Source: Solobacterium sp. (GTDB taxonomy: Bacteria > Bacillota_I > Bacilli_A > Erysipelotrichales > Erysipelotrichaceae). Taken from it: a DNA stretch of 64,000 nucleotides. Below the pieces are notes generated by a model. The model was given only the letters and a program-made list of their open reading frames with translations, searched no databases and was not told the DNA's origin. Positions 3,070-61,129 of this stretch are shown in pieces. The position numbers were made by a program, and so were the translations under genes. Within the stretch, counting starts at the first letter, position 1. Every line of letters starts with the position of its first letter. The stretch covers positions 1 to 64,000 of the forward strand of contig JAFWEW010000019.1 in the NCBI GenBank assembly GCA_017512725.1. Direction: 5' to 3'.

Positions 3070-3142
3070 GTGAAGAAAGGCAAACAGGTGAGCCGCCAGG
3101 TTGTGGCCCTGGTGTTACCGGGTTCGAGTCCCGTTCTTCACA
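3070..3142 (+). tRNA. tRNA-His (GTG)
   Basis: A cloverleaf can be drawn: acceptor GTGAAGA pairs with TCTTCAC, the anticodon stem CCAGG/CCTGG encloses TTGTGGC with anticodon GTG, and the T loop is TTCGAGT. One T-stem pair is mismatched. A G lies directly before the acceptor strand, as expected for the extra 5' G of tRNA-His. CCA is not encoded. Confidence 0.85.
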
Positions 3143-3148
3143 TCTTGC

Positions 3149-3221
3149 GGATCTGTAGCTCAATTGGTAGAGCGGCAGCTTGAAGCGCTGCGCGCAGGAG
3201 GTTCAAATCCTTCCGGATCCG
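3149..3221 (+). tRNA. tRNA-Phe (GAA)
   Basis: Acceptor GGATCTG pairs with CGGATCC, the D arm is GCTC-AATTGGTA-GAGC, and the anticodon stem GCAGC/GCTGC holds loop TTGAAGC with anticodon GAA. The T arm GGAGG-TTCAAAT-CCTTC is normal. The discriminator base reads as G, whereas most bacterial tRNA-Phe have A. CCA is not encoded. Confidence 0.85.
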
Positions 3222-3227
3222 TCTTAT

Positions 3228-3300
3228 CGTGTGTTGGTGAAGCGGATAACACATCGCCCTTTCAAGGCGGGATGCACGGGTTCAAATCCCGTATACACGA
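3228..3300 (+). tRNA. tRNA-Glu (TTC)
   Basis: Acceptor CGTGTGT pairs with ATACACG, the D arm contains the conserved GG, and the anticodon stem TCGCC/GGCGG encloses CTTTCAA with anticodon TTC. The T arm is ACGGG-TTCAAAT-CCCGT. CCA is not encoded. Confidence 0.85.
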
Positions 3301-3307
3301 TCCATAC

Positions 3308-3380
3308 AGGAGCTTAGCTCAATCGCAGAGCACTGTGCTGATAACGCAGAGACGCTGGAGCGTAACCGCAGTTCCTACCA
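3308..3380 (+). tRNA. aberrant tRNA-Ile (GAT) with encoded CCA
   Basis: Acceptor AGGAGCT pairs with AGTTCCT (one G-T), followed by A and an encoded CCA. The D stem GCTC/GAGC and anticodon stem CTGTG/CGCAG with loop CTGATAA (anticodon GAT) are sound. The D loop AATCGCA lacks the GG pair, and the T loop reads AGCGTAA instead of TTCRANN, with a one-base gap in its stem. The body is 70 bases before CCA. Both halves of the normal tertiary elbow are therefore missing. It is either a decayed gene or a specialised tRNA. Confidence 0.6.
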
Positions 3381-3383
3381 TCT

Positions 3384-3456
3384 GGTTCCGCCGTATAACG
3401 GCATATTATATCCGGCTGTCTACCGGAAGACGAGGGTTCGACTCCCTTCGGAACCG
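3384..3456 (+). tRNA. tRNA-Asp (GTC)
   Basis: Acceptor GGTTCCG pairs with CGGAACC, discriminator G. The anticodon stem TCCGG/CCGGA encloses CTGTCTA with anticodon GTC, and the T arm is GAGGG-TTCGACT-CCCTT. It starts three bases after the CCA of the preceding tRNA-Ile-like gene. CCA is not encoded. Confidence 0.85.
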
Positions 3457-52306: not shown

Positions 52307-54241
52307 ATGGGATACAATCTGTATTTTGATTTATCTGCGATCATGATCACACTTGTGATCCTCTTTGCGTCAATTATCTCAAAATGGATCCCAACCAATC
52401 AGAACCGTGCTTACCGGAACCTGGTGGGAGCGATCTTTTTAACTGCGTTGTTTGACTTTATCACCCTGTATCTGGAAAACGAACTGCTTGGGAAGGTGCC
52501 CTGGTACTTTACGGCAAAATTCATCACGGATTCGCTGTATCATCTGTTCCATATCATGACCGGAATGTTTTTTTACTGGTTCTCACTGGGACTGCTGAAT
52601 CTCTGACCGGATACGCCCAGCAGAAGAGCTGCGATGTTCGGACCGATGATAACCGCAGAAGTCATGCTGGTGCTGAACATCTTTCTGCCGGTTGTCTTTT
52701 ACTACAATGAACAGGGGCTGTATGAACGGGCGCCTCTGATTGCGGTCATTTATATCCTGGGATTCGGGTATCTTGCCATGTCGGTTTCGGTACTGTTACG
52801 GCATAGGAAACTGGTAACGTTCCGAATCGTACGGATTATGGGGAGTTATGCCCTGATGGCAGTCCTCGGGATCCTGATCCAGACGCTGTATCCCGTTTTG
52901 ATGGTGGGTGAGTTTTTCAATGCGCTGGCAATAATCATGATGTATGCGGAGGTGGAATCTCCGGATGAGATCAAAAACGAGAAATATCAGGTCATCACCC
53001 GCGAAGGCTATCTGCGTCAGGCCGCAGGAGATATCAGCAGTAAGAACCCGTTCCTTTCGATATTTGTACATGTGAATGACATGCATGAAACCTCCGTCGG
53101 AGGAGATGAATACATGCATGAAGCGCTGATGAAGGAGATCATCCGCTTTCTGAAGAAATACAAAAAGGAAATCTGGATCGCAGTCTGGAATGACAGCTGT
53201 ATTGTTCTTAATCTGGCCCATTACAGTGAGAAGCGGGCACAGGAGATCATGGATGAGATCGAGAACCGGTTCCATCAGCCATGGATGGTCGAGGGAATTG
53301 CCCAGAGTGCGGGACTGACCGAATGGTCGGTGCGGTATCCTTCAGATATCAATACGATCGGAGAACTGGTGAAGAAGACCGAGATGCTCAATGATGTCGG
53401 GCTGCACCGGCACAGAGGACAGCTCTGTTTATCGGAAGTCGATTTTGAAGAGCTCAGTTATACCCGGAAGATGATGGATCTTGCGGTGGAAGCCGTTCAC
53501 AAGCATACCGCCCAGGTCCGCTATGAACCGCTTCTGGAAGTAAGCTCCAATCAGATCGTAGCGGCCAGGGCGATCATATACTTCCCGGATGAGAACGGAC
53601 AGTACGTTGACGGCAATGAATTTGTGAATCCCGCTGCGGAGTCTGCAGTGCTTACCGCATTTGATGAGTACGCACTGAATGATGCGGCACAGAACCATGC
53701 CGCCCTGATGAAAGATACATCGCTGAGAGTAATCTCAACACGGTTTTCGGCATCGACGATTATGTCGGCGAATGTGAAAGAACGGCTTGGAAGGATCTGC
53801 GAACGTGGCGGGATGGATTACCGGAAGCTGCTGCTGAGAATATCCGACGGCGTCTTTTCGTCACTGAATGAGGAACAGCTGCAGCGGCTGAACCAGATGC
53901 GGGAACAGGGCTGGAGAATCGCAATCGATGATTTCGGCATGGGACAGTTTTTCCTGAGCCGGCTGACCGATTCCACGATCCGGGACCTGATTCTCCACAA
54001 CACGATTACCCAGTCGATCCTTACGTCGGAAAAAGCGGTAAAATTCGGGATCGGCATTATCTATACGATCCACGGCATGAATAAGATGGTAACGATGAGC
54101 GGAATCCTGAATGAGGAACAGGCACAGCTGGCAAAGAACATGGGAGCGGACTATATCACCGGGCCGTATCTTGCCGAACCGATGCCGGCGGAGGAATTCC
54201 GGAAATGGATGAAAGCGAGGGAAACCGATGTCACACAGTAA
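52307..54241 (+). pseudogene. membrane GGDEF/EAL-like protein interrupted by an in-frame TGA
   Basis: One frame of 645 codons with a TGA at codon 100 (52604-52606). Reading through it gives a continuous protein: about eight membrane helices (1-225), a degenerate GGDEF domain (AVWNDSC where GGDEF should be) and a degenerate EAL domain (ARA for EAL, ISDG for the TE motif, MSGILNE for EGVE, DDFGMG kept). It would bind rather than make or degrade c-di-GMP. After the stop an ATG at 52634 could restart a 535-residue protein lacking the first helices. The 5' ATG lies 15 bases after TATAAT with no ribosome site. Sequencing error is possible. Confidence 0.75.
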
Positions 54242-56142
54242 TCTCTGGCTTTCCGTAACAGCTTTTATTCTGGATCTGGTTCTGATCGGCGTCTTTTACC
54301 GGCAGGAACGCAGCGGACTGCGTCAGGAACGGCTTTTCCGCCTGCTGCTGTGGAACCTTCTGGCACTGAATACGATTGCGTTTTCCTATACGGTTCTGCT
54401 GAAGCTGACCATTGAAATTGCGGCAGCGGAACAGATCATTTCCTGGCTGGCAACCATATTTATCACCCTGGTGCCGATGCTGATGCTGGCGTATCTGAAC
54501 GGTCTGTTTTACTACGATGCAGCACAGAAACGAGCCAACACGTTCCTGATCGTACTTGCATGCCTGACGTTTGTCATGGTGACGGTATATGGGCCGGTGG
54601 TAATCTGTCAGAACCGGACGATCGTTCTGCGCGGAACCATGGGTATGATCCTGACGGTTGTGCCGGCAGCGCTGTTCCTGAGTCTCGGATTCCTGCAGGG
54701 GTTCCTGCTGAAGAAATCGATTTCCAGAATGCATCTGTGGAGCCTTCGAAGCATATTTGTAATCTGCGTCCTTGCGCTTGCGGGATTTATGAAATTCCAT
54801 ACGCTTCCGATTTATGGATTTGTCTTGTCACTGGTGCCGCTTCTGAGCCTGTTCACACTGGAAGGGAAGGATACGCTGATTGATCATGAAAGCGGACTGC
54901 GGAACTTCAATGCGTTCCGTACTTCCGTCATCGTCCGTCTGAAGAATCAGAAAGCGTTCCGGCTGATTCTGGTCTATGCCGGCGGGCTGTCTTCCGTTCT
55001 AGCAGGAATGGATGAGGAGTCCGGCAGAAAGGTCATCGGAGAATTCGCTTCGGTGCTCCGAGGGATCACAGATCTTACGGTATTCCGGATCAGTGATGAA
55101 GTGTTTGCGATCCTGCAGGACGATATAAATGAAGTCGTTACACAGGAACTGCTGATCGGCCTCAGAACCGAAACAATGAAAGCACTGCATTTCGGCAAAC
55201 GGCAGTACGACCTGAATATCCATGCGTGTGTAACGGATCTTCCGAAAGAGATCCGGACGATGGAAGATCTTGAGATCCTTGCAGCACTGCTGAAAGAGGC
55301 CGGTTCTCTGAACAAGGGCGGAGAAATGATGATCCGTAACCTGGATGTTGAGCGGGAAAAGAAGATGCGGGAAGAAGTTCATTCGCTGAGCAGAGCACTC
55401 CAGGAAAACCGCATGGAAGTCTGGTACCAGCCGATCATGAATACAGAAACCGGGAAGTTTGACTGTGCAGAAGCGTTGATCCGGATGAAGGCACCGGACG
55501 GCAGCTATGTGCAGCCGGGACAGTTTATTCCGGCAGCGGAGCGGACTGATCATCCGGATCGGGCGGTTCGTCGTGCGGGAAGTATGTACGTTCCTTGCGG
55601 AAAAAGAACGGGAAGAACTCGGAGTCCGTTATATCGAAGCGAACCTTTCAGTTGAAGAATGCATACAGGAAACACTTCCGGCAATGCTGAAGAATGCGCT
55701 GGAAGAATACAAGGCATCCCCGGAACTTCTGAATATCGAAGTTACCGAAACGGCGGATGACACCGTCAGTGAACTGATGATGCATAATATGACACTGATT
55801 CATGAAAATATCGGAATCGAGCTTTCTCTGGATGACTTTGGTACGGGATACTCCAATCTGGAACGGGTGCTGAATATGCCGGTCGGTGTCGTCAAGTTTG
55901 ACCGGTCGATGCTGCTGAAAGCGTTTGAGACCGAAGAAGGAAGGATTGTTTTCAGCCGGCTTGCGGAAGCGGTCCACAATATTGACCGGAAGATTGTTTC
56001 CGAGGGAGTGGAAACGAAGGAACAGGCTGATTTTGTGAAGTCGCTTGGAATTGAATATATCCAGGGTTTCTATTATGCAAAGCCCATGCCGAAGGAAGCG
56101 TATCTCGAGTTTTTGCGGGCCCATAATGGTGCTGCCTCATAA
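54228..56142 (+). pseudogene. membrane GGDEF-EAL protein (c-di-GMP phosphodiesterase) with a frameshift
   Basis: Overlaps the preceding gene by 14 bases. About eight membrane helices are followed by a degenerate GGDEF (RISDEVF) and an EAL domain: VWYQPIMN, AEALIRM with EAL, then a shift near 55540-55555, after which the second frame supplies LIIRIGRFVVREV, NIEVTE, DDFGTGYSNL, KFDRSML, EGVE and QGFYYAKP. The catalytic residues of a phosphodiesterase are all present if the two frames are joined. The first frame alone ends at 55655 and lacks most of the EAL domain. There is no slippery sequence, so mutation or sequencing error is the likely cause. Confidence 0.8.
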
Positions 56143-56168: not shown

Positions 56169-56945
56169 ATGCCATCCTATACGATCGTGGCCCGGCCGGA
56201 TGATCTTTCAAAAGAATTGAAGTTTCAGACGGAACAGGTGCTGAAAGCACATGGATATGAAGAAAATGAGACGTCCTGCGATACGGTATTCGTGATTGGC
56301 GGGGACGGCACATTTCTTTATGCAGTGCACCAGTTCCTGGACCGGCTCAGTGAGGTAAAGTTTTTTGGCATTCATACCGGTACATTCGGGTTTTACACCG
56401 ATTACCGGGATACGGATTTTCAGGAATTTATCCGGGTTTTTCTGAGCGGAGAATGCACGGATTATACGTATCCGATCCTGGAAGGGAAAGCGGATACCGG
56501 GGATGTCTTCTATGGCGTTAATGAGATCCGTATTGAAAATGCGGCCAGAACACAGGCAATGGATGTGTATATCAACAGCCGGATGCTGGAACAGTACCGC
56601 GGTACCGGCATGTGTGTTTCAACACAGCTGGGGTCTACCGCATACAACCGGTCCCTTGGAGGAGCGGTAATTGCGGAAGGTCTGCCGGTGATTGAAATGA
56701 CGGAAATGTCCGGCATTCATCACAACAAGTACCACTCTCTGAAATCTCCGCTGATCCTGAGCGATCAGTGTTCGATTACCTTTGTGTCGGACAATTTCAC
56801 GGGAGCCCTGCTGGGCGCTGACAGTGAAGTATATCCGATGGATGCGATACGCAAGCTGACGATCCGGGTCTCAAAGGATAAGTGTGTACGGATGCTGAAA
56901 GGACGGAAAATCGATTACTTTGACCGTCTGCAGACGTTATTTTAA
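56169..56945 (+). CDS. nadK: NAD kinase
   Basis: A 258-residue NAD(H) kinase that makes NADP. The nucleotide motif GGDGTFL is at 44-50, NEIRIEN is the NE-type motif, and GTGMCVSTQLGSTAYNRSLGGA is the family's glycine-rich block. Length is normal for the short Bacillota form. The ATG lies about seven bases after an extended -10 box, so the mRNA probably has no leader. Confidence 0.93.
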   Translation: MPSYTIVARPDDLSKELKFQTEQVLKAHGYEENETSCDTVFVIGGDGTFLYAVHQFLDRLSEVKFFGIHTGTFGFYTDYRDTDFQEFIRVFLSGECTDYTYPILEGKADTGDVFYGVNEIRIENAARTQAMDVYINSRMLEQYRGTGMCVSTQLGSTAYNRSLGGAVIAEGLPVIEMTEMSGIHHNKYHSLKSPLILSDQCSITFVSDNFTGALLGADSEVYPMDAIRKLTIRVSKDKCVRMLKGRKIDYFDRLQTLF

Positions 56946-56963: not shown

Positions 56964-58514
56964 ATGCGAACTTGGCGTTCTCTGTATGAAATGTTATGGT
57001 TCCCGATCACCGTTCTTTATTTTGCGGTGTTTTTGCTGGGATTTGGAAATATCCTGTCCAATGAAGCCTATTCGGCAATCATTAATGTCAATAATGAGTT
57101 TGTACTGCTTGCGGCAGAATGCATGATCCGAATCGGAACATTCATGATCGCAAACTTTCCGTTATTGTTCCTGATCCGTCTGGCTGCCCGTAAATCCGGC
57201 AGTGCGACTACCATGATCTCTGCGATCTGCGGTTATATCGCATTCCTGGTCGTATCCATGTATTTCGGCCGTCAGGACCTGCCCGCCTCGGCGTATTCCT
57301 CCATCCTTGGTCTGTCGATGACGACAGCCGGCTCGGCAACCGTACGCGGAGGCGTCCATTACCCGATGCAGACAGGCATTCTTGCGACAGCGATTGTTTC
57401 CGTGATTACCCTGACCAGTCATACCCGGTCCCGCAACAGAAGTGAATACAGCTTCTTCAGCTTTATTTCCCGGGATACCTGGTGTGTGATCCGTACCGTG
57501 ATCTTCTCCGGAATTGCCGGACTGGCAGTGACCTATGTCTGGCCGTATGTGGTAAACCTGATCACAACCTCTCTGGAGTATATCGCGAAAGATACAACCA
57601 ACCCGGTGAACCTTACTCTGTACGGGATACTGGAACGGTTCCTAGGAGTCGTGAACCTTGGTACACTGATTCGTTCACCGTTCTGGTACGGCGCCAGCGG
57701 CGGTACCTGGATCTCCATGGCCGGTACCAATATTGCCGGTGATGTCAATATCTGGACCGCTCAGCTGGAAGCTTCCTCGGTAACCGGTATGTCCGGACGG
57801 TTCATCACTCCGTACTATGTGGTTAATCTCTTTGCGGTACCTGGTATGTTATGGGCATTCTATTCCCTGCAGACGGACCGTCTTGAACGCAGACGACTTC
57901 TGATGTTCTACGTGGTGGTAACCGTTATGTCGATCTTTACCGGAACCCTGCTGCCGCTGGAACTGAGTCTGGTACTGCTCTGCCCGCTGCTGTTCATCAT
58001 GCATGCGGCATATATGGGCATTCTTTTCGGGGTGTTCCATGCGATGCATATCTACCTTGGCTTTAACTATCACGGAACTTCGACGCTTACCGCACTGCCT
58101 GGAACGCTCTTTGAATATCTGAGCTATTTCCAGAACTCCGCAATGCACGGTACGCTGATCAAGATTGCGTTTGTCGGTGTGATCTCCTTTGTGATCTACT
58201 TCCTGATGACAAGACTCTATTTCAAGTCTCTGGCACTGGATCTCTTCCATACCGGATACAAGGATGAAGTGATCGAAGGAACCATTGAAGCGGTCGGCGG
58301 TGTTGAAAACATCAAGATGATCAATGCGGGTACCGAACGTCTGATCATCAGCCTGTATGATTCTTCGAAGCTGAATGTTGATAAACTGCTGGAACTTGGA
58401 GCGATCCGCGTATCGGAGACCAAAGCAGGCTATGCGATCGGGTATGGCGCAAGAAGTACCATGATCCGCATCGGCATCAACAACTACATGCGCAAGACTA
58501 TCCGCAGTATTTAA
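56964..58514 (+). CDS. PTS glucose-family EIIC protein with a degenerate EIIB domain
   Basis: A 516-residue protein. Residues 1-425 form an EIIC-like membrane domain with about ten hydrophobic segments (GNILSNEAYSAIIN, GVVNLGTLIRSPFWYGASG, GFNYHGTSTLTALPG). Residues 434-510 match the EIIB fold of the glucose family (VGGVENIKMI...VDKLLELGAIRV), but the phosphorylation motif NCATRLR is replaced by NAGTERL at 454-460: no cysteine and no first arginine. It therefore cannot take phosphate from EIIA in the known way. It may be a sugar facilitator or a sensor. It follows nadK by 18 bases. No EIIA gene is adjacent. Confidence 0.85.
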   Translation: MRTWRSLYEMLWFPITVLYFAVFLLGFGNILSNEAYSAIINVNNEFVLLAAECMIRIGTFMIANFPLLFLIRLAARKSGSATTMISAICGYIAFLVVSMYFGRQDLPASAYSSILGLSMTTAGSATVRGGVHYPMQTGILATAIVSVITLTSHTRSRNRSEYSFFSFISRDTWCVIRTVIFSGIAGLAVTYVWPYVVNLITTSLEYIAKDTTNPVNLTLYGILERFLGVVNLGTLIRSPFWYGASGGTWISMAGTNIAGDVNIWTAQLEASSVTGMSGRFITPYYVVNLFAVPGMLWAFYSLQTDRLERRRLLMFYVVVTVMSIFTGTLLPLELSLVLLCPLLFIMHAAYMGILFGVFHAMHIYLGFNYHGTSTLTALPGTLFEYLSYFQNSAMHGTLIKIAFVGVISFVIYFLMTRLYFKSLALDLFHTGYKDEVIEGTIEAVGGVENIKMINAGTERLIISLYDSSKLNVDKLLELGAIRVSETKAGYAIGYGARSTMIRIGINNYMRKTIRSI

Positions 58515-58523
58515 GAAGAGCTG

Positions 58524-58549
58524 AAAACGGCAGGAACCTGCCGTTTTAC
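58524..58549 (+). terminator. intrinsic terminator after the PTS-like gene
   Basis: AAAACGGCAGG and CCTGCCGTTTT pair around AA, ending in TTTTA. Confidence 0.8.
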
Positions 58550-58657: not shown

Positions 58658-58681
58658 ATGATCGATGGAGATGTTTTCATT

Positions 58682-61129
58682 ATGACGAATCGACTTCCAG
58701 AAAAACTAAGTGCACTAAGAAAGCATTTTGGATATTCACAAGGGGATATCGCAGAAAAATTAAAAGTCCCGGTTACAGAGTATATGAACTGGGAAAACGG
58801 CAATACGATCTGCCGGATCGAACAGCTGTGTGATCTTTCGAGAATGTTCAAAACACCGGTAGAAGACCTTGCGGATAACACCCGCACGGTGACTCTGCCG
58901 CGGCTTGACGAAGATGATGACAGTATTCAGATTGCCTTTGGAGGCATTACTGCCGGCGCGCTTCCGGAAAATGAAACACTGACGGAAGATGTGACGGAAA
59001 ATCTGATCGTTTCCACCCGGCCGCAGTATGAGGAAACAGCCGAGGTTCCGTATGAGGATCTGCAGAAGACAAGGGTCATGGATACCCAGCAGTTCCAGGA
59101 AACGACGGTCAACCGCATTGTGGATACCGGCACACAGGAACCAATCTATGAAGAGGAACCCCGGCCGGTAAAGAAAAAGCCGGCACCGAAGAAAGAACCG
59201 GAGACCATTCCGTTCCTGGAGACGCTGAAAAAGCTGGACCGAAGAACCTGGATCATTATCGGGTGCTCGCTGGCGGCGCTTGTTGTGCTGATCTCCGTGA
59301 TCTCTGCACTTTCCAGAAAACGTTCCGGTACGGATGTTGAAACCGGAAGCGTGAACCGTCTGGCACTGGGCAATACGTTCTCGATGTATCTTTCTTCCGA
59401 AGGAAACCTCGTGACCGCAGGACAGAACATTCCGACACTGGATTCTGAAGATCTGGTACAGGTCTCCGCAGGCCCGGTATGGGCGATGGGCCTGAAAAAA
59501 GACGGTACGGTTGTATGTTCCGGAGCCGGCAATGCCTGCAAGGTCGAAGACTGGAAAGACATTGTCATGATCGCTGCGGGCGACAATCACAGTGTCGGTC
59601 TGAAGAGTGACGGCACGGTTCTCTGCAACGGCAGTACCGGCGCATGTTCCGTCAGTGACTGGAAAGATATCAAGGCTGTTTATGCCGGCAATGAGATCAC
59701 GATCGGTCTTACCGATACCGGAGAGCTGATGGCCTCCGGAAACTTCAGTTCCATTGAGAAAATCCGTAACCTTACCAATGTCAAAACCGTAGATATCGGA
59801 AACAACCAGATTGCGGTAACCGGTATTGACGGCAGTGTTACCTGCTATGCGACCGGTTCTTCCTCTACAAGCAATACCGCCGCATGGACCGGAATGGATT
59901 CCGCGGTAACCGGCGGAAGCTTTGCGGCAGGTCTTTCCGGCGGAAGAGTCACGCTTGCAAGTACCGATGATGAGATGGTCAAGGCAGTCAGCGAATGGAG
60001 CGGCATTCAGTACATTGCCGCAAGAAACAACACGCTGATCGCAGTTAATTCCAACGGTAAAGTAATCGGAGCCGGTGACAACACCATGGGTGTCTATGGC
60101 GAGAATGATGCGGAACCGGAAGAGACAGAAGATACCGAAGACAGTGCAAAGCTGAAACAGGTCTCGAATGTAACGTATTCTGTGACGTCCGCGAATCTGC
60201 AGATCTCCTGGGATAAAGTTCCGGATGCGGATTACTATAACGTTACGATCAGCACGACTCCGGAAACTCCGTTTAAAACCGAAAAGACGAGCGTTTCGAT
60301 TTCAACCGATAAACTCAAGAGCGGCACAACGTATGTGATCAAGATTACAGCCTGTTCCAAGGATGAGTCGAAACATAAGAATTCCGATACGCTTACGACC
60401 AGCTATCAGTTCGAAGCGAATCTGACCAAGCTGGCGACACCGACAAACATCACCTGCACGCAGAGCGGTACTTCCATGAAGATCTCATGGAACCCGGTAG
60501 CCAACGCAGACCACTATGAAGTAACCGTACAGGATATCTCCCAGACGGTCACTTCTACCAGTGTGACACTGGATATGAGCGGCTGGTCGAGCAAGGACTT
60601 CAGTGTAAATGTCACTGCTTATCCAAGTTCCAAAGATACCCGTTATACCTTCAGTGATACTGCGACGGGAAGCGGTAAATATACGGCAGAGAAAAAACCG
60701 CTGTCTGGTACGCCTACTGTTAATAGTACGAAGTTTGATGAAAGCACCGGCACACTCAGCATCACCTGGAACGCAGTTGAGAATGCCGGCAGCTACAAAG
60801 TTCAGATCGGCCCGATCAGTGCTACGGTAACGGATTGTGCTTACTCGACAAAACTTGACTACGGTACGCATTACGCGATCACGATTACCGCGATCCCTGC
60901 CGATACTTCCAAGTTCACGGAAACGAAGGCAGAAAGTTCCTATGATACGCCTGCGGAGCCGGAACCGGAGCAGGATACCAGCACTGAGGGCGGCTGTAAG
61001 GCGGCTGGAAAAGTATGGTATATCTTAGGCGATGATCCGGGAACCTGTTATGACAGCTGGGACACCGTGAAAGATGCCTGTGTGGCACTCGGAAGAACCT
61101 GGGATGACAACACACATGGCTGTAACTAA
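58682..61129 (+). CDS. membrane-spanning HTH protein with RCC1-like propeller and FN3-like repeats
   Basis: An 815-residue protein with an unusual order. Residues 6-62 are an XRE-type helix-turn-helix (LSALRKHFGYSQGDIAEKLK). A Thr/Glu/Pro-rich cytoplasmic linker follows to 188, a single membrane helix at 189-210, then outside an RCC1-like repeat region (about 225-475; recurring SVGLKSDGTVLCNGS and WAMGLKKDGTVVCSG). Three FN3-like domains (about 490-770; LQISWDKVPDADYYNVTI, MKISWNPVANADHYEV, LSITWNAVENAGSYKV) come next, and a Cys-containing tail (GGCKAAGKVW...NTHGCN). The N-in/C-out layout resembles RodZ. I chose the ATG at 58682; an upstream ATG lacks a ribosome site. It could pass an outside signal to DNA or to cell-wall machinery. 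Confidence 0.85.
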   Translation: MTNRLPEKLSALRKHFGYSQGDIAEKLKVPVTEYMNWENGNTICRIEQLCDLSRMFKTPVEDLADNTRTVTLPRLDEDDDSIQIAFGGITAGALPENETLTEDVTENLIVSTRPQYEETAEVPYEDLQKTRVMDTQQFQETTVNRIVDTGTQEPIYEEEPRPVKKKPAPKKEPETIPFLETLKKLDRRTWIIIGCSLAALVVLISVISALSRKRSGTDVETGSVNRLALGNTFSMYLSSEGNLVTAGQNIPTLDSEDLVQVSAGPVWAMGLKKDGTVVCSGAGNACKVEDWKDIVMIAAGDNHSVGLKSDGTVLCNGSTGACSVSDWKDIKAVYAGNEITIGLTDTGELMASGNFSSIEKIRNLTNVKTVDIGNNQIAVTGIDGSVTCYATGSSSTSNTAAWTGMDSAVTGGSFAAGLSGGRVTLASTDDEMVKAVSEWSGIQYIAARNNTLIAVNSNGKVIGAGDNTMGVYGENDAEPEETEDTEDSAKLKQVSNVTYSVTSANLQISWDKVPDADYYNVTISTTPETPFKTEKTSVSISTDKLKSGTTYVIKITACSKDESKHKNSDTLTTSYQFEANLTKLATPTNITCTQSGTSMKISWNPVANADHYEVTVQDISQTVTSTSVTLDMSGWSSKDFSVNVTAYPSSKDTRYTFSDTATGSGKYTAEKKPLSGTPTVNSTKFDESTGTLSITWNAVENAGSYKVQIGPISATVTDCAYSTKLDYGTHYAITITAIPADTSKFTETKAESSYDTPAEPEPEQDTSTEGGCKAAGKVWYILGDDPGTCYDSWDTVKDACVALGRTWDDNTHGCN

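Follow-up and report, generated by a model that had tools for sequence, protein, structure and literature searches.

Results

An EIICB-like gene directly downstream of nadK

The window (the whole stretch of Solobacterium DNA that was analysed, 64,000 nucleotides) carries at 56964..58514 (+) an open reading frame for a 516 aa protein, here called X, which profile matches and an AlphaFold2 model identify as EIICB-like and which is predicted from its sequence to be dead for phosphotransfer. An earlier reading made from the DNA letters (the sequence-only reading) had given the frame, its coordinates, its strand and the letters NAGTERL exactly. The EIIC-like membrane domain takes up residues 1–428 (56964..58247, +; boundary set by alignment) and the EIIB-like domain residues 429–516 (58248..58511, +), an order shared with E. 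coli PtsG (EIICB-Glc; PDB 8qsr, 9a3b), for which the profile match covered X residues 49–512 (E 6e-29). The best NCBIfam model, and the closest curated one, was TIGR02002 (PTS-II-BC-glcB, glucose IIBC), which matched residues 10–510 with E 1.4e-47 and also matched 19/19 diverse X members; the score of 162 bits is below the curated family threshold of 592, and the catalytic motifs of this model are missing in X. In Pfam, PTS_EIIB (PF00367) remained sub-threshold (17.5 versus a cut-off of 27) and PTS_EIIC (PF02378) gave no match in the window's X.

The AlphaFold2 model (m919d4701be86; pLDDT 81, pTM 0.82) was built from 35 orthologues and predicted both the EIIC and the EIIB fold within a single chain, as judged by Foldseek and VIA matches to PtsG, MalT and EIIB. 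It matched 9a3b with Z 23.3, the EIIC of Bacillus cereus MalT (5iws_A) with Z 21.5 and rmsd 3.6 over 384 residues at 16% identity, and the isolated EIIB 3bp3_A with Z 14.8 and rmsd 1.6 over 81 residues; MalT, unlike X, keeps Glu355 and His240 (PMC11393339). The kept PTS fold that the sequence-only reading had proposed was thus recovered in the model. Because the TIGR02002 match is near full length and the model matches PtsG, the MalT EIIC and the isolated EIIB, X is, by sequence and predicted structure, a genuine full-length homologue of the glucose-superfamily EIICB.

Lost catalytic residues and the altered pocket

In glucose-family EIIB the cysteine is the phosphate carrier. Columns were checked in the window's X together with 80 X sequences from named genomes (81 in all) and in a deeper set of 26, with the register N-A-G-T-E-R-L-I of X aligned to D-A-C-V-T-R-L-R and E. 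coli PtsG numbering for the catalytic positions. The former phosphorylation loop NAGTERLI (X residues 454–461; 58323..58346, +) has Gly456 in place of Cys421, Arg459 at Arg424 and Ile461 in place of Arg426. The alignment thus confirmed the loss of the phospho-cysteine noticed beforehand, and the loss was conserved in every X orthologue examined; the Cys421 column holds Ser in 60, Gly in 14 (the window's X included), Thr in 4, Asn in 2, Ala in 1 and Cys in 0/81. The refutation of that claim named in advance, an intact NC-TRLR motif in close orthologues, was sought and not found. Arg stands at the Arg424 position in 44/81 sequences and at the Arg426 position in 0/81; all 81 have at least one Ser, Thr or Cys among residues 455–457.

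The rest of the EIIB domain and the EIIC part had been taken to be intact, and here the alignments disagreed. Within EIIB, Arg426 is lost as well, and the KTPGRED linker typical of most glucose-type permeases (PMC3901232) is gone, TPGR being present in 0/81 and 0/26 X sequences versus 4/6 and 13/19 ordinary PTS permeases. Within EIIC, the positions that hold glucose in PtsG (E202, R203, K257, T297 and E298, with H211, H212 and N215; PMC11393339) were assigned in X by alignment to PtsG. The equivalent of PtsG GLHH...N215 is residues 231–242 (NLGTLIRSPFWY; 57654..57689, +), where both His are replaced and GLHH reads NLGT in the window's X; His is found at the His211 position in 0/81 sequences (mostly Gly, Asn or Ser233) and at the His212 position in 2/81 and 1/26 of the deeper set (mostly Thr, Ala or Ser234), and the N215 position is Arg237 in 79/81 orthologues and Lys in the other two. 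The equivalent of GITEPIE is GTLLPLE (residues 327–333; 57942..57962, +), so that GITEP has become GTLLP in the window's X with both Thr297 and Glu298 replaced by Leu; the Glu298 position (X 330) is Leu in 79/81, Val in one and Phe in one, and the Thr297 position (X 329) is mostly Leu, Ile or Met, with Thr surviving in 1/81 and in 2/26 of the deeper set. The glucose ligand Lys257 corresponds to Asn288 (57825..57827, +), which was invariant (81/81 and 26/26); the E202 position is Asp, Glu or Asn224 and the R203 position is Arg225 in 77/81. Asp260, Asn288 and Arg237 are conserved pocket residues specific to the clade.

Apart from the few Thr297 and His212 survivors, the catalytic positions were lost jointly in 81/81 and 26/26 X sequences. 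Since the acceptor Cys, Arg426, the His pair and the Glu are all gone, established knowledge of the PTS family excludes conventional phosphotransfer by X; judged from its sequence, X is incapable of it.

Distribution, descent and selection

X was carried by all 35 genus relatives first searched and by about 217 of 272 Erysipelotrichaceae genomes (match E < 1e-60), the carriers including Solobacterium, Holdemania, Anaerorhabdus and Lactimicrobium; a looser tally at E 0.001 gave 252 genomes, ordinary PTS included. The motif loss is family-wide, and a local mutation or sequencing error was therefore rejected as its cause. Broken copies were seen in single genomes, with a frame break in G034 (L036/L138) and a split with a stop in G170, and these may be assembly errors. 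The dN/dS of the whole of X was 0.07–0.13 versus seven relatives, EIIC and EIIB alike, and was lower than that of nadK in 6/7 pairs; X is under purifying selection. From these sequences we hold it highly probable that, throughout the family and under purifying selection, X has neither the Cys nor Arg426 in EIIB, and in EIIC neither the His pair nor the Thr/Glu of GITEP.

In a tree made with the motif columns removed, 26 X sequences fell on one side of a branch and 24 others on the opposite side (support 100/100), and X is one clade against ordinary PTS. Even sampling of Bacilli/Bacillota (395 and 324 genomes) gave no X outside Erysipelotrichaceae, and those outside matches whose sequences were read (L151–L155, L161) were ordinary permeases with the motifs intact. 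The exception was a phosphotransfer-dead EIICB pair from another Bacilli family, L158 (G322) and L171 (G333), which, like X, has no His pair and reads GFTLPLE where the Glu would stand and AAS where the Cys would, but has only 25% identity to the window's X and lacks equivalents of Arg225 and Asn288; the L158 gene (4530–6059, −) lies near genes for an RpiR-type regulator, Enzyme I and pyruvate:ferredoxin oxidoreductase, not near nadK. X and this pair share one side of a branch (support 100/99.9) with the pair at the base of the X clade, and this tree is compatible either with a single early loss and later divergence or with two losses. X is best explained as a duplicated and rebuilt glucose-superfamily EIICB that has left phosphotransfer.

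We examined if the hosts themselves were without a PTS, and this explanation was rejected, as Enzyme I was present in 255/272 family genomes. In the window's genome, four other glucose-type EIIBs keep the Cys (HC or NC-x-TR) and PF00358 EIIA gave three matches. Glucose-type EIIA (PF00358) was not found in 48/272 family genomes; among the 20 of these 48 that were listed, 18 carry X and 10 of the 18 are at least 90% complete, so that X occurs in at least 10 near-complete genomes without PF00358 EIIA (G080, G012, G101, G107, G114, G115, G116, G125, G130 and G133).

nadK and other neighbours

The gene for NAD kinase, nadK (56169..56945, +; profile matches), ends 18 bp upstream of X and is the only nadK found in its genome. 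Of the 78 X loci that had 900 or more upstream bases, 56 have nadK immediately before X in the same orientation, at a gap of 12–101 bases judged from blast ends, and five others have it no more than 1.5 kb away. It is by far the most conserved neighbour; a gene read from its sequence as metG was second (position −2, 23 loci). The position after nadK, which the sequence-only reading had called unusual, is no local peculiarity, since no other arrangement is commoner in the family. Some carriers, Holdemania among them, have X after rodA and an opposite-strand acetyltransferase gene, and there nadK is not adjacent. Genes read from the sequences as mutS, uvrA, hprK and lgt lie downstream of X in some loci, and no transcription regulator was conserved beside X in the loci compared.

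A hairpin (AAAACGGCAGG/CCTGCCGTTTT; 58524..58547, +; z −3.56 versus dinucleotide shuffles) lies just 3' of the X stop codon and is absent from the consensus scan's list. No promoter was found between nadK and X by consensus scan, and at Rfam gathering scores the nadK-X operon showed neither a riboswitch nor any other known RNA. Because the hairpin sits after X, nadK and X are probably co-transcribed as a single transcript ending there. Elsewhere, the window contains a lysine riboswitch (RF00168; 38155–38320, 66 bits) and, at 3070–3456, five clustered tRNA genes.

In the protein encoded directly after X (58658–61129), an XRE-type HTH at the N-terminus is followed by one likely TM helix and then by RCC1 repeats and FN3 domains, an unusual design for a membrane-bound regulator; a homologue was seen in 9/80 X loci. 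In the wider family, the commonest gene directly downstream of X (14 loci) encodes an apparently secreted protein of about 220 aa (L083 cluster c3). At 54228–56142 is a membrane GGDEF/EAL protein broken by a frame change near 55535–55547, whose halves (54228–55655 and 55507–56142) jointly match one 646-aa relative (L063) and whose 94% identical neighbour L062 is a single unbroken frame; the break represents either a recent mutation or an assembly error.

Discussion

X has probably turned into a receptor or into some other kind of transporter. The reading that we prefer, at a rough probability of one half, is that X serves as a PTS-independent membrane ligand receptor, possibly also as a facilitator, with its inert EIIB binding a partner. 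The EIIC part would bind a ligand in the remodelled pocket (Asp/Glu224, Arg225, Arg237, Asn288, Leu330), and the EIIC part would move this ligand or only shift its own shape; the inert EIIB, locked in what would be the unphosphorylated state, would then touch a cytosolic partner. The model for such a contact, and a precedent for a sensing EIIB, is dephosphorylated E. coli EIICB-Glc, which sequesters the repressor Mlc (PMC3901232). Given the conserved pairing with nadK, NAD(P) metabolism would be the first place to seek the partner; the more specific proposal, that the whole family shares a PTS-derived receptor, encoded in one operon with NAD kinase, whose inert EIIB links NADP(H) supply to a ligand outside the cell, we consider unlikely. 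The receptor reading draws on the joint loss of the catalytic positions across X, the low dN/dS shared by EIIC and EIIB, the clade-invariant residues at pocket positions, and the presence of X in at least 10 genomes (at least 90% complete) without PF00358 EIIA. The lack of a conserved transcription regulator beside X speaks against it, and the Ser, Thr or Cys always present within residues 455–457 leaves an unusual hydroxyl or thiol acceptor conceivable.

The sequence-only reading had offered a facilitator or a membrane sensor working without phosphotransfer, and both remain live now that the sequence excludes phosphotransfer; plain facilitated diffusion of glucose through a normal EIIC is less likely than it had implied, because other residues occupy the His211/His212 and Thr297/Glu298 positions. 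As a tentative alternative, X may be a secondary transporter or facilitator independent of the PTS, in which the elevator EIIC would move an unphosphorylated substrate and EIIB would only stabilise EIIC; this view draws on the conserved EIIC fold and pocket residues and on the facilitated diffusion of unphosphorylated xylose by the PTS permeases GatABC/GalABC (PMC10989795). The replacement of Glu298, Thr297, His211/212 and Lys257, which hold glucose in PtsG, means that its substrate would be bound in another way than glucose, and the same view leaves unexplained why every orthologue preserves an inert EIIB. If X were a channel alone, EIIB should decay, and if it were an EIIB scaffold alone, the pocket should decay; neither was seen. 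Because pocket and EIIB are similarly constrained while the phosphorylation loop varies, a receptor with a partner-binding EIIB is favoured over a plain facilitator, and the predicted fold, very like that of a real EIIB (Z 14.8) despite the varying active loop, suggests a non-catalytic role for this domain.

Import of a vitamin-type NAD precursor (e.g. nicotinate) feeding the pathway to the co-encoded NadK would account for the nadK adjacency in 56/78 loci. NadA was absent from 19/19 genus genomes tested and PnuC from the host and 12 more of the 19, and the host keeps nicotinate phosphoribosyltransferase, so that niacin must be imported; the loss of Glu298 and gain of Arg237 would also make the pocket less acidic. 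We nevertheless rate this as quite improbable, since the importer search covered PnuC and niacin could enter by another importer (ECF/NiaX, NiaP), and a neighbouring family (f2), in which most genomes lack NadA, is without X; moreover, NadK acts late in the pathway, and nadK is not adjacent to X in Holdemania and others. That X is still a PTS enzyme, using a loop Ser/Thr as acceptor or taking phosphate from an unusual EIIA, could be argued from Ser being commonest at the Cys position (60/81) and from the constant Ser, Thr or Cys within 455–457, but this we judge to be a very slim chance, as the Cys position is Gly in 14 sequences (the window's X among them) and Asn or Ala in three, the loss extends to Arg426, the EIIC His pair and Glu298, and X is found in genomes without PF00358 EIIA. 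The broken copies in G034 and G170 would suit a pseudogene in decay or an error of sequencing or assembly, a reading to which we assign a negligible probability; as almost all of the roughly 217 genomes carry an intact frame and dN/dS is close to 0.1, it is already refuted for the family.

Yeast Snf3/Rgt2 and bacterial UhpC are transporter-like sensors. We propose them as an analogy to X for sensing through a kept transporter fold; theirs, however, is the MFS fold, and their sequences are unrelated to X. In the literature searched, which covered few subscription papers, there was no description of a Cys-less or phosphotransfer-dead EIICB clade or sensor. What appears to be new in X is the family-wide loss of phosphotransfer and the pairing with nadK, the fold and the descent being already known.

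Phosphotransfer is what defines the glucose-type PTS permeases; X, selected, family-wide and phosphotransfer-dead, indicates that the fold can be retained for another task. In gut and rumen genomes X is likely annotated through homology as a glucose transporter. It offers a natural test case for the roles of EIIC and EIIB without phosphate, and the constant pairing with nadK provides a concrete functional lead. If the proposal that we consider unlikely, of a receptor tied to NADP(H) supply, were true, the receptor and nadK operon would represent a PTS-fold signalling system that operates without phosphotransfer.
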